Source of the DNA: Sacculina carcini
Lineage: Eukaryota; Arthropoda; Thecostraca; Sacculinidae
Length of the DNA stretch: 64,000 nucleotides
Direction of reading: 5' to 3'
Assembly (NCBI GenBank): GCA_916048095.2
Contig: OU696585.1
Span: forward strand, 4,403,145 to 4,467,144
Below, one piece after another: positions 1,366 to 60,722 of the stretch (position 1 is the stretch's first letter; every line of letters begins with the position of its first letter). The translations under genes and the position numbers were made by a program. The notes under the pieces are model-generated. The model searched no databases. It saw only the letters and a list, made by a program, of their open reading frames with translations, and was not told where the DNA came from.

Positions 1366-1439
1366 AATGTGTGCGTGTGTATGTGTGTGTGTGTATGTGT
1401 GTGTGTGTGTGTGTGTGTGTGTGTGTGTGTGTGTGCTGG
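1366..1439. repeat. (GT)n run abutting a 3' splice site
   Basis: About 35 GT units end five bases before the AG acceptor of the next coding piece (AG at 1440-1441). There is no pyrimidine tract, so the GT run occupies its position. Confidence 0.9.
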
Positions 1440-1441
1440 AG

Positions 1442-1612
1442 GCTCGTCTACGTCTCGGGCGGAACGTGGGACGCGAAAGACGGCGCCAGCTGATAGATTC
1501 TGTGCTGGACAGTGTAGGCCTGACTCACTGTCACGACACCACCATCGGACTACACGCCACAGCCAAGAGTCTGTCGGGCGGCGAAAAAAAGCGTCTGGCA
1601 TTCGCCTCCGAG
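1442..1612 (+). CDS. white-like ABCG transporter, coding piece 2 (ABC signature)
   Basis: Fifty-seven codons, phase 0 at both ends. The frame starts A-R-L-R-L-G and includes the helical subdomain, then D-T-T-I-G, and ends with the ABC signature LSGGEKKRLAFASE at about 1573-1612. The signature loop contacts ATP across the dimer interface. AG at 1440-1441 is the acceptor and GTGAAAAG from 1613 is the donor. The next coding piece starts V-L-T-D-P, exactly where Walker B begins in the family, which supports both boundaries. Confidence 0.92.
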
Positions 1613-2015
1613 GTGAAAAGTGTACAAATTATTGTTTTGTGACCAGTTGAAGGAGAACAACATCAATTAACATACAAATTACACAGTTGAAGGAGAACAA
1701 CATTAAGGCAAATGCAGCGAAAATTAGCAATGCAAAATAGTGAAATAGAAAAAAAACAAGGATGCGGAAAAAGTTTGAAAGCAAGAGATATAGGGATGAA
1801 AAGAAGATGAAGCAATGAGATGGGATCAATCTCCAAAAGCGTTTGACCAATAAGGCGGTAGTTCTCAACTCCGCGACACACCAACAGAAACACATGGCAC
1901 ATTTCTAGGCCAATCATTGACAATTTAAAAAATTGCCATTGAACTTTACCAATACCTGCTAGAGCCGCAAGCTCATTTATTCTGATGCAAAAATATATAT
2001 GGTTGTCCCTGAGTT
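1613..2015. other. Intron sequence, AT-rich
   Basis: No gene is seen. A 20-base word (AGTTGAAGGAGAACAACAT and neighbours) occurs twice, near 1646 and 1686, about 40 bases apart: a short local duplication just inside the donor. Confidence 0.6.
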
Positions 2016-2019
2016 CCCA

Positions 2020-2285
2020 TGGAATAAGAATACTGCCGCCGTACCCGCTGCGTGTCGTAAGAGGCGACTAAAAGCGAACCATCTGGCTCTTCCCTTCGAG
2101 TAACTACTGTCAGGACCGAGGGGGGGGTCGCGATAATTCGGCAGAGCTGGTGCCCCCCTGTAACGGCAGCTGTCTTCTGTCCTATCCTTCTCCCCGAACT
2201 AAAAAAATGTATCAACGACAACAACAACAACATGTATTGGATATAGCGCACTTTCGAGGGCAAAGGCGCGAGCAGTAATAAAAGT
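2020..2285 (-). mobile_element. Antisense L2-like LINE 3' end with (AAC)n tail
   Basis: An ACAACAACAACAACA tail near 2217-2232 runs into GTATTGGATATAGCGCACTTTCG. That is the reverse complement of the terminal hairpin seen at other LINE ends in this window (2210, 21000, 29845, 30660). The flanking 2020-2210 segment contains GTCGTAAGAGGCGACTAAAAG and is probably another dispersed repeat that I cannot name. Confidence 0.55.
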
Positions 2286-2378
2286 ATAGACACATGTGGG
2301 CACATGGAGAGCGGTATGGAGACGAAAATAAGGAACACAAATCGACAGAAAGTACATGGGTGCCTGCAAAATTGCATA

Positions 2379-2455
2379 CATGCATACACACGCACACATA
2401 CACACACACATACATACACATACACATGCATACACATATATACACATATACATAT
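2379..2455. repeat. (CA)n/(TA)n microsatellite
   Basis: Alternating CA and TA dinucleotides. Intronic. Confidence 0.85.
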
Positions 2456-2778
2456 GTGAATAATGTAATTGAATAGATAAAACGTGTTATTGAATAGAAT
2501 ATCGTGTTGAAATACGGTGAGTTGCTCAAGCACACAGTATCCCAAAACTGAGTGAACCGGATCATTTTTACCAGTGCTATCTAGTAGATGACACTTTCAC
2601 TCTTGACAGCTTTGTAGTGGCGGTATTGGTGGCGTTGATAAGAAGTAGTTTTCCAACTTGTCATTGACGGTCAAAGAAGCGGCTGTCAAAAATGTACATA
2701 ACAATTGTCAAACAAGCACATCAAACACAAGTTGATGTTACCCAGACACTTCAGAGCTCAATAACAGCCAACACACAC

Positions 2779-57526: not shown

Positions 57527-57606
57527 GTAAGCATTTGAGTTGTAATTAATACGTGTCATAAAAAATCATAGCGAATAGTCCATTTTTCAATGAGCGGCCT
57601 ATATAT

Positions 57607-58725
57607 TAGAGTTGGGTTGTTGGGTAGAGTAAGGAATTTTATGTGATCACATAAATATTTTTTCACATAAAATGCCGTTTTTTAGCAAATATAACATAAA
57701 ATACCATTTTAACTGAAAAATACTGTTCAAATTTTTAATTCTGTAGGTTGCGCCCGGAATAAATATATTATGTTAATAATTGTAATTACATAGATGACGG
57801 ATTCAACACGCACACATTCAACTGCATACACTCAAACACTGCATACACGTACAATACTAACGCCAGCAATGTTAACAATGGAAATATAGCAAAGTTCCTG
57901 ATAGATTATCAAATCCGGACACTATGAACGTCGCACGGAGTACCCTTAGATATCTACAGTATGGGTTGCGGTTGTGGTTTAATTGGTGTGATCAAATCGC
58001 TCCAAGCCAGGTACACGTACCATTGGCTTTTTGGAAAGGTAGGATCACGCATACATGTATTTCATATTTCTATTTTCCGGAATTAACACAAATTGCTGAA
58101 ATGGCGTCTGTACTGCCACGCTCAAAAGGTTGAAGAAAATCAACCTGAAGTCGAAATTTCCCAGAAAAATATAGGAAGATAATGTTTTGCATTGCTTGTG
58201 AGAAAAACGTGTCCGCTGGTCAGAAGCCAAAGCTCGGTCGATACAACAAATCGGCTGCTCACTCAAAAAGTACCATATCAACTACACATGCAGAATCGAA
58301 TTTTGGGATCATTGTGCCTCGAAGCAAAAATCCAAAAACGACACCACTACAGTGCCACCTCTTCCATGAACATGTCGAGTGTGATTTATCATGTTTCGCA
58401 ATGCCCCCACATATTTTCATTAGCCCCTCCCCCCGGGAATAACTCTGGTGCCGCCACTGCACCTACACCTTATCGGAGGGTCCTATCAAGGTGAAACTTT
58501 TGTCACGTAGTATGAAAATTTCGCCTCTCTCATGGTGGCTCTCCAATGGAATGTCGCTGGATACACGCATAAAATGCAAATAATCTATGAAAGAGTCAAA
58601 AGTTCACATATTACATGACAATTTAATAACATATTTTGGGACTTTTGACAACATATTTTGGCATTTTTCGTCACATAATAAAAACATAGAACGACAAAAA
58701 TTATCACATATAATTCCCAACTCTA
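57607..58725. mobile_element. hAT-like MITE in an ABCG intron
   Basis: Ends TAGAGTTGGG and CCCAACTCTA, with subterminal inverted matches (AATTTTATGTGATCACATAA against TTATCACATATAATT). Length 1119 bases. The flanks (CTATATAT and ATCATTGG) do not match well, so the target duplication is lost or the borders are off. No transposase. A CCACTACAGTGCCACC segment near 58345 and GGTGCCGCCACTGCACC at 58449 may be further nested sequence. Confidence 0.65.
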
Positions 58726-58907
58726 ATCATTGGAGTACACACCCATTTTTTCCAATATAAAATTTCGCTTTTTGGATTTCTATAGCACCTCACATTTTTA
58801 TTAACTAATAAAACAAAAAAGGAAACACTCATGAACCAATCACCCTTGTGCGTATATGTGTGTATGTATGTGTGTATGTATGTGTGTATGTGTGTGTTCG
58901 TGATCAG

Positions 58908-59051
58908 TTGATGGCCATAGTTGCTGGTCTGTGCTACTCACACGTCACCGTGAGTCAGTACGGTATCAAGAGCATCCAAGGTCTTATGTTTGTTCTGGTC
59001 ACCGAAAATACATTTCCAGCGCTCTACGGCGTCCTCTCGCTGTTTCCCAAG
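58908..59051 (+). CDS. white-like ABCG transporter, coding piece 7 (membrane spans 1-2)
   Basis: Forty-eight codons, phase 0 to 0. It starts L-M-A-I-V-A-G-L-C-Y, the first membrane helix continued from the previous piece. It then gives I-K-S-I-Q-G-L-M-F-V-L-V-T-E-N-T-F and L-Y-G-V-L-S-L-F-P-K, the second span with the conserved N-G-x-L-F-F-x-x-x-x-x-F pattern (N replaced by S or I here). The acceptor GATCAG follows about 50 bases of TGTATG repeats. The donor is GTAAAT. Confidence 0.9.
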
Positions 59052-59429
59052 GTAAATTTGTCTCACTGACACACTGATTATTATGAATTAGATAACGAAT
59101 TTTGTCTGACCATCTGTGATTCTCCAATTGCATCGTTAATTGGATTGTAAATGAAAGCAAAATATGTGTGTATATGTGCAATGTATTAATATGTTTAAAA
59201 TATATAAATATATTTAAATTGTCTAATATATTTTACACTAGTGCACCAAGTCTATATACTGTGACACCTCTGATTTCTCAATCAAATATGTGTCTGCGTG
59301 TGCCCTCGCTCTTGTTGCCTCTTGGTTCTGTCTGTTACGCTTATTGTTTGCGTCTCTGCGTGCTCAATCAAATTAACGATGTGGTTTGCTGTTGTTGTAA
59401 GCTTCAGTATATTTGTGTTTATCAAATTC

Positions 59430-59572
59430 ATCTACTCCTCTGTCAAAATATGAATAATTACATTTATAATAACAATAAATGTTTTAATACATAATACATA
59501 TTTATATCGAATAAAAATGTATTGTTATAATTAATGTAATTATTCATATTTAGATAAAGGAGTAGTTTAATT
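59430..59572. repeat. AT-rich inverted repeat
   Basis: ACTCCTCTGTCAAAATATGA at 59433 and its inverse near 59570, and AATAATTACATTTATAATAA facing TTATAATTAATGTAATTATT: arms of about 50 bases around a 40-base loop. Possibly a small MITE. Confidence 0.65.
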
Positions 59573-59923
59573 AGTATTGAATGTGAATTGGTGGGTATGT
59601 GTTAATTTGTATTGCATGTTGAATTAGTGGATGTTATTGTTAATGCTCGGTGTTTAATGGTAATAGTTTTTCTTTCCCTTATGTGTCTGTTGATGATCGA
59701 GACACATATAGATTGTAGTTATATAATTGAGTCCGTTGGCACTCATCTAATATTCCCTTGTTCAGTAAGTTTAATAATAATAATAATAATAACTATACGC
59801 AACAAATTGTACTGTTTCAGTTAAATGTAATTGATTACAATTAAAAAACCCATTAGCGTTATATTCTCAATTAGAGGCAATTAAATGACAGTTTTTTATG
59901 TTTTTGTGAATTTCAACACGCAG

Positions 59924-60004
59924 GAGCTACCGTTGTTTCTGCGCGAGCAAAAGTCCCGGATGTACTCGACAAGTTGTTTCTATTTAAGTCGAGTTATATC
60001 ATTG
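59924..60004 (+). CDS. white-like ABCG transporter, coding piece 8
   Basis: Twenty-seven codons, phase 0 to 0: E-L-P-L-F-L-R-E-Q-K-S-R-M-Y, then C-F-Y-L-S-R-V. This is the very conserved E-x-P-x-F-x-R-E-x-x-x-x-x-Y loop and amphipathic helix between spans 2 and 3. Acceptor CACGCAG, donor GTAAGT. It is the only acceptor of the eight not preceded by TG repeats. Confidence 0.93.
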
Positions 60005-60722
60005 GTAAGTTTTATTATAAGCAAGCCGATTCAACATACGAATAGATTGAGATAGCAATGATATGTTAGAAATTCATGATCACATACTAATCACGCTACC
60101 ATACAGACTAACCATACGACCGAATGGATCCGCTGTTCCATCGTATGCAGGTTATAAGTTGTACGTTTCCCAGTACATAATCCTTATTACGTAGTTATAA
60201 GTATAATCCACGTGAAATACAGGATCCTCATCCTTCCTTCTATCACATTTTAACATCGAACACTTATACAGATAATAAATTATGTTTACTGTGTTTAACT
60301 ACAATAATCATGGGCGTAGATCCTTGGGGGGTAGGGGTATTTATATCCCTGACAAATTATCTGGGGATATAAATATGCAATTATACCCCGATAATTCGGT
60401 TAAGTTCATTTCATTGGTAAATTAAGATCAAACATTCATTATCAAGATCAGCATAAAAAAGTAGCAAAACACGACAAGTGTGTGTGTTTGCAATTATAAT
60501 AAATGTATTTTTTTAGGTATATGTGGTGTAATTGACTAGGCCCAAAATGGTTGAAGGTCACCTGCAATTGACCAACTTATTCAAACTTGAACATTAATGT
60601 ATGATAGCTGTCATCCCTCTAGTCTCGACACAAAGCTACGCTCTTGGCAATAACAATTACATTTAATTGTAAATTAGAGAATGTCTGTGTGTGTGTCTGT
60701 CTGTGTGGTTTGTCTGTGTCAG
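60005..60722. other. Intron sequence, nothing recognised
   Basis: AT-rich; ends in the tract GTGTGTGTGTCTGTCTGTGT before the acceptor CAG at 60720-60722. Confidence 0.6.

Follow-up and report, generated by a model that had tools for sequence, protein, structure and literature searches.

A window of 64 kb of Sacculina carcini DNA (the whole stretch analyzed here), taken from a genome of 264 Mb in 43 contigs, contains most of an ABCG-type transporter gene on its + strand, and most 3' splice sites of this gene are preceded by TG-rich sequence, i.e., by a UG tract in the RNA. Joining the exons at the acceptors discussed below and at GT donors gives a single open frame; the gene has a GT donor and an AG acceptor at all eight introns with the frame kept, as in U2-type GT-AG introns. 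Used as a 388-residue query against known structures, the gene product aligned over residues 2-379 with ABCG25 and over residues 1-375 with ABCG2 (E about 1e-50). Across ABCG25, ABCG2, ABCG1, ABCG5 and ABCG8 the E values were 2e-38 to 2e-51 over most of the length, and the fungal CDR1 transporter gave 8.5e-55. Seven of the nine exons were matched separately in a protein search of the genome, the exon at 59924 only within a match that also crosses a stop; the first partial exon and a proposed 29-base exon gave no match in that search.

The 29-base exon deserves caution. Without it the exons at 17885 and 57421 are out of frame with each other, and with it the frame is open. On paper, any exon of 3n+2 bases would replace 29643-29671 and mend the frame equally, and therefore we count the secure acceptors as six TG-rich of seven, not seven of eight. 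The presence of (CA)n past its donor and of (TG)14 before the next acceptor, a layout like that of AC/GT bridging introns, would make the exon somewhat more believable.

The TG content of an acceptor was measured as the number of TG dinucleotides in the 50 bases upstream of its AG, with 10 or more defining a TG-rich class and fewer than 8 a low-TG class. All eight acceptor coordinates fall on the G of an AG. In agreement with the initial annotation, TG-rich sequence (11-23 TG) was present before seven of the eight acceptors: 1441 (23), 13544 (11), 17884 (13), 29642 (15), 57420 (19), 58907 (16) and 60722 (13). The exception it had named, 59923, indeed has only 4 TG, but the ordinary T-rich tract ascribed to this site was an overstatement, as the sequence is weakly T-rich (20 T in 50, pyrimidines 0.52). 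Ten or more TG are found before 2.1% of the 3420 AGs on the + strand of the window (acceptors included) and before 0.95% of the 3275 on the - strand. Whereas acceptor 29642 rests on the frame only, the other seven rest on protein homology. Six of these are TG-rich, which has a binomial probability of 6e-10 at the 2.1% background rate.

The same measure was applied to three unrelated gene families (myosin, kinesin and SNF transporters), giving 153 acceptors in 49 bins of 40 kb. For the myosin head there were 82 matches; one intronless full-length gene was left out and five of the other 81 gave no clear site, leaving 76 acceptors, which were positioned manually by reference to the conserved protein, the upstream sequence being visible. 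For kinesin, 63 of 123 matches were taken, of which three repeat-extended or pseudogene-like ones and one without a candidate AG were removed; the resulting 59 acceptors were set by a rule blind to upstream composition. The other 60 kinesin matches were full-length single-frame copies, stop-laden or overlapping matches, or lay in unfetched stretches. From 94 SNF matches 40 exon starts were chosen and 20 fetched, in which 18 acceptors were called by rule. In these genes outside the window the calling rule required GT and AG, so that GT-AG boundaries are tested by the window gene only. The protein kinase family was of no use for introns, since each of the 130 scored matches (714 candidates) covered nearly the whole domain in one frame.

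TG-rich acceptors made up 46/76 in myosin, 32/59 in kinesin and 7/18 in SNF genes, 85/153 in total. Inside kinesin introns only 33 of 681 AGs were TG-rich, and the difference from the combined myosin and kinesin acceptors (78/135) is highly significant (Fisher p 3e-45). For SNF genes, 2 of 54 control windows lying 150-300 bases upstream were TG-rich, and none of 27 stretches of 50 bases following kinesin donors was. Acceptor TG content did not correlate with intron length (rho 0.12). The proposal that TG takes the place of the pyrimidine tract is thus supported, TG being commoner at acceptors than inside introns. On the other hand, the expectation that this gene would be an unusual case was not borne out: myosin, kinesin and SNF genes carry this signal too, though loci differ, and the window gene is a typical, somewhat strong case of the TG acceptors of this genome.

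The signal is also specific for one strand. Ten or more CA were found at 1/153 acceptors, compared with 85/153 for TG, and a perfect (TG)6 or longer lay within 120 bases of 55/153 acceptors, compared with 2/153 for (CA)6. Because CA is TG on the other strand and is rare at acceptors, the supply of microsatellites alone cannot explain the pattern, and something must act on the RNA strand. Near donors the two runs are about equally frequent (six units or longer, TG 5/85 and CA 6/85), and in the cores of kinesin introns TG-rich windows are more frequent in antisense than in sense (12.0% vs. 5.4%), so a transcription-wide asymmetry does not explain the signal either.

These controls bear on the view that the tracts are a mutational by-product, in which TG microsatellites and LINE tails pile up in introns and come to lie before exons by chance. 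TG repeats are plentiful in the window, and a repeat-derived tract is present at acceptor 1441, where a dispersed repeat ends that is presumably LINE-like. The repeat end consists of a hairpin (gagcgcttttgagacc/tgaaaagcgcg) followed by TGTAATG and a TG tail, and this tail is the tract of the acceptor. The segment 1300-1500 of the window has at least 69 matches in its own genome, part of them to the TG run alone; the long matches begin at query position 1 and many end at 131-140. Sequence similar to the repeat was also found at another locus (L002). A kinesin acceptor (C20:1783766) likewise has this LINE-like tail as its tract, and one further acceptor has such a hairpin no more than 300 bases away. 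Yet of 142 acceptors (135 and the 7 of the window) just 3 have a hairpin of this kind nearby, the same microsatellite is depleted at acceptors when it reads CA, TG-rich stretches are missing directly after the 27 kinesin donors, and the antisense excess in intron cores runs in the opposite direction. The by-product explanation was rejected on the strand and donor controls, and we regard it as very improbable. LINE-like tails can supply acceptor tracts but form a small part of them.

Composition sets the tract apart from a pyrimidine tract. When the last 50 bases were compared with the region 150-300 bases upstream, only TG (2.1x) and GT (2.2x) of the 16 dinucleotides increased about twofold; CG, GC and GG rose 1.2-1.3x, and TT (0.83), CT (0.72), TC (0.68) and CA (0.52) fell. 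Pyrimidine content before acceptors is flat at about 0.50-0.58, the same as upstream. Within the last 40 bases, the longest run of pyrimidines averages 3.7, vs. 4.7 in the control. The enrichment over the last 20-40 bases that marks a canonical polypyrimidine tract was not found in the sampled acceptors. TG density peaks at -10 to -30 and has dropped off by about -70, and positions -3 to -23 of the TG class are roughly 47% T and 39% G. The stretch free of AG is longest in the TG class (median 64.5 bases), shorter in the low-TG class (29.5) and shortest between control AGs (12).

Most tracts are imperfect, with a median of 3 TG units in the longest perfect run. This matters for the idea that a poly(UG) quadruplex (pUG fold) is the signal. 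The fold needs 12 guanosines according to a preprint (PMC12636285), and some tracts are long enough, but only 15 of 135 acceptors have, in the nearest 80 bases, a run of at least 12 TG units, a count restricted to perfect units. As a general signal the pUG fold is disfavored, and we consider it very unlikely.

Our interpretation is based on the position of the tract, its specificity for strand and dinucleotide, its recurrence in unrelated genes, the absence of a pyrimidine tract and the long AG-free zone. The UG tract is read as a working equivalent of the pyrimidine tract, and judging from sequence it very probably represents a widespread replacement of the polypyrimidine tract in this genome. 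We infer that the tract is needed for splicing.

Several results weigh against this interpretation. UG is not obligatory, as 52/153 acceptors have fewer than 8 TG, and the low-TG class (44 myosin and kinesin acceptors) shows a weak signal of another kind, with pyrimidines up to 0.64 at -13 to -8. SNF genes are weaker in TG (7/18), and loci are not uniform (permutation p 0.001 for 115 acceptors in 23 bins). Most acceptors of the muscle-type myosin loci on C23 and C35 are non-TG (13/15 below 8), and myosin loci on C19 and C21 are mostly high in TG. It is therefore possible that the role of UG is limited to a subset of genes. The control region 150-300 bases upstream is itself elevated, with 8/80 windows TG-rich in one count and 51/396 (myosin and kinesin) in another (10-13% vs. 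5% in intron cores), TG runs there outnumber CA runs (12 vs. 6 of 150), and 9/85 donor-side stretches of 100 bases are TG-rich (11/85 are CA-rich). A search for a branch-point motif (YTRAY, 5-mers) showed no peak. Further, acceptors were derived from protein homology and frame, those of myosin were picked with knowledge of the upstream sequence, some rule-based kinesin and SNF calls are visibly wrong (e.g., one in L097), and the sample comprises three families plus the window gene.

The variation between loci also fits a regulatory role, in which CELF, TDP-43 or similar UG binders would act through the tract at many alternative exons, beside weak ordinary acceptors. CELF genes are present in the genome, and GU-rich elements are bound by CELF1 (PMC3737555). 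However, the tract occurs at more than half of the sampled acceptors, in ordinary structural genes, and has no pyrimidine tract beside it, for which a core signal is the better fit. We therefore see regulation of this kind as possible but rather doubtful.

Of the described intron classes known to us, the nearest with 3'-end GT repeats is that of the AC/GT repeat introns of fish and lamprey, reportedly described by Lin et al. (Genome Res 2016). As a model for the present introns, they suggest that a (CA)n run past the donor would base-pair with a (UG)n run ahead of the acceptor, thereby bringing the intron ends together and replacing U2AF2. An intron class of this type is described in passages of a review (PMC7404189), which place a GT repeat at the intron 3' end as found here; the introns studied here differ in having no general AC partner near the donor and in that the tract is present in a large part of the introns sampled. 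In the window, two of eight introns do combine a CA-rich donor side (17 and 40 CA in 100 bases, donors 50 and 29672) with long TG at the acceptor, and at 11/85 donors the following 100 bases contain at least 15 CA. Base pairing of the (CA)n at 29694-29761 with the TG tract at 57389-57416 is conceivable and would span an intron of 27.7 kb. Against a general rule, donors are flanked by CA runs about as often as by TG runs (6 vs. 5 of 85; 11 vs. 9 by dinucleotide count), donor CA and acceptor TG are uncorrelated (rho -0.06, n=65), and CA-rich donors occur in 8/39 TG introns vs. 3/21 low-TG introns, all counts of CA near the donor. Without a donor-CA excess or a correlation with acceptor TG, bridging as a general rule was rejected, and we give it little probability; it may serve single introns, perhaps two in the window.

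Table 1. Features of the window (positions of the window, in bases) and, in the last row, arrays elsewhere in the genome
Feature	Position	Strand	Basis or remark
ABCG exon, 3' end (DIFVGSLTVREHLEFV)	1..49	+	homology, frame; donor GT at 50
Short CA repeat past donor 50	79-90	+	
End of dispersed LINE-like repeat	1130..1437	+	genome matches; left border by eye
UG tract, (TG)6 and (TG)20, before acceptor 1441	1382..1435	+	
ABCG exon with signature LSGGEKKR	1442..1612	+	homology, frame
Stretch with 11 TG before acceptor 13544	13493..13542	+	
ABCG exon with Walker motif	13545..13786	+	homology, frame
Stretch with 13 TG before acceptor 17884	17833..17882	+	
ABCG exon (NFNPADFYIHTLAV)	17885..18089	+	homology, frame
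Stretch with 15 TG before acceptor 29642	29591..29640	+	
Proposed 29-base exon	29643..29671	+	frame need only, without homology of its own
(CA)n directly past donor of 29-base exon	29694..29761	+	
UG tract, (TG)14, before acceptor 57420	57389..57416	+	
ABCG exon, first transmembrane part	57421..57526	+	homology, frame
UG-rich tract, 16 TG in 50, before acceptor 58907	58856..58905	+	
ABCG exon	58908..59051	+	homology, frame
ABCG exon with the sole non-TG acceptor (59923)	59924..60004	+	homology, frame
UG-rich tract (TGTCTGTG units) before acceptor 60722	60682..60719	+	
Last ABCG exon recognized in the window	60723..60858	+	homology, frame; donor GT at 60859
Protein-kinase frame arrays	G000:C20:3262236-3456307, C24:7686419-7776248, C31:15647-86543, C35, C15:7031088-7313723		

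Several observations concern the genes themselves. Three long frames inside the ABCG gene, at 49693-52542 (+), 21140-24154 (-) and 38677-40590 (+), have by eye the look of non-LTR retrotransposon proteins. Elsewhere, a 2230-aa open frame has two ABC-transporter matches (G000:C12:6107197-6110748). The protein-kinase arrays in Table 1 are local arrays of open frames of about 1500-2900 aa, each with several protein-kinase domains at a spacing of about 1.2-1.4 kb. About two dozen full-length single-frame copies of the kinesin motor exist beside intron-rich kinesin genes (G000:C11:1881371-2062534, C23, C29 and other contigs), and single-frame copies were also seen for the myosin head (C7:1241414-1243426) and three times for SNF (C10:4867615-4885553). 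At one SNF exon (L128, G000:C10:9540722-9541142), the first bases are repeated directly upstream of the acceptor, which may reflect a local duplication spanning this 3' splice site.

If the UG tract replaces the pyrimidine tract, it would have to be recognized by a protein. A search with human U2AF2 identified two full copies as single open frames, arranged head to head on C26 (G000:C26:1032223-1036658; L116, L117). The frames encode 430 and 424 aa and are 67% and 64% identical to the human protein over about 328 residues, with the matched part free of introns. Both contain two RRMs and a UHM together with RNA-contact residues. The two copies read the same in their C-terminal UHM parts and are diverged in RRM1-RRM2, a pattern suggestive of gene conversion confined to one part. 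Common to both is N289H in RRM2; Asn289 is presumably a uracil contact, although the paper searched on the human structure makes no mention of it. The contact residues K195, F199, K225, R227, V254, D256, K260, F304 and K329 are kept in both copies; one copy is altered in the linker around T252 and V253, and the other carries F197Y and R334L. Most of the residues that contact the pyrimidine tract in the human U2AF2 structure, as given in passages of PMC4786784, are thus kept in both copies; our list of contact residues derives partly from these passages and partly from general background.

For U2AF1 there is one intron-bearing gene and one diverged frame, which we take for a ZRSR relative. CELF is represented by an open frame of 515 aa on C4 (62% identity) and by matches to separate exons on C9 and C16. 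The two diverged U2AF2 copies and the CELF genes are candidate readers of the UG tract. In one scheme, the tract would be read by U2AF2 itself, through the two diverged copies and their shared Asn-to-His exchange in RRM2. Alternatively, a UG-binding helper such as CELF would read it and recruit U2AF and U2. Growth of TG microsatellites, together with the LINE-like tails, may supply or lengthen the tracts.

A change based on U2AF2 is credible here because Fritillaria borealis links duplicated, diverged U2AF2 to weak, heterogeneous tracts; passages of PMC13326754 describe duplicated U2AF1 and U2AF2 in this species and one intron class with heterogeneous, purine-interrupted tracts. The two genomes are alike in having duplicated, diverged U2AF2 and an altered 3' splice signal, as far as those passages go. 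They differ in that here the AG is kept (window gene), the tract is UG, and U2AF1 is represented by one gene and one diverged frame. The furthest-reaching version is that the lineage has recoded its core 3' splice signal genome-wide from polypyrimidine to poly(UG), with the diverged U2AF2 duplicates (Asn289-to-His) as direct reader and with GT-AG introns and the U2 spliceosome kept. This remains a tentative proposal, which we would not expect to hold in full.

Compared with the polypyrimidine tract of U2-type introns, which is bound by U2AF65/U2AF2, the UG tract shares the site just before the AG, the T content (about 45% in the TG class), the scarcity of AG and the CAG or TAG end. It differs in that the TG class is about 40% G and in that neither the content of pyrimidines nor the length of their runs exceeds background. 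In CFTR exon 9, a UG-rich run likewise lies upstream of the 3' splice site, but that run, discussed together with TDP-43 (PMC12171016), is tied to missplicing of one exon, whereas here it marks the commonest acceptor type sampled. Human introns with weak pyrimidine tracts and G-rich or C-rich enhancers resemble the present case in that a weak tract is compensated; in passages of PMC2481429 the motifs are G or C runs and lie further upstream (-30 to -80). No word beginning with TGTG, UGUG or GTGT occurs in the main text of that paper. Among the 10-20 papers listed of up to 359 per search, in mostly open-access literature, none described a genome whose acceptors are mainly of the UG type, which is weak evidence of absence.

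The significance of UG acceptors lies in how firmly the pyrimidine tract is established. To our knowledge, it is regarded as near-universal in metazoan 3' splice sites. UG acceptors could escape gene finders and splice predictors that learned from pyrimidine tracts. If slippage-prone repeats serve as a core splicing signal, the strength of an acceptor would be unusually mutable. A genome with UG in place of pyrimidines would offer a natural test of how far recognition by U2AF rests on pyrimidine chemistry and how far on co-evolution between protein and signal.

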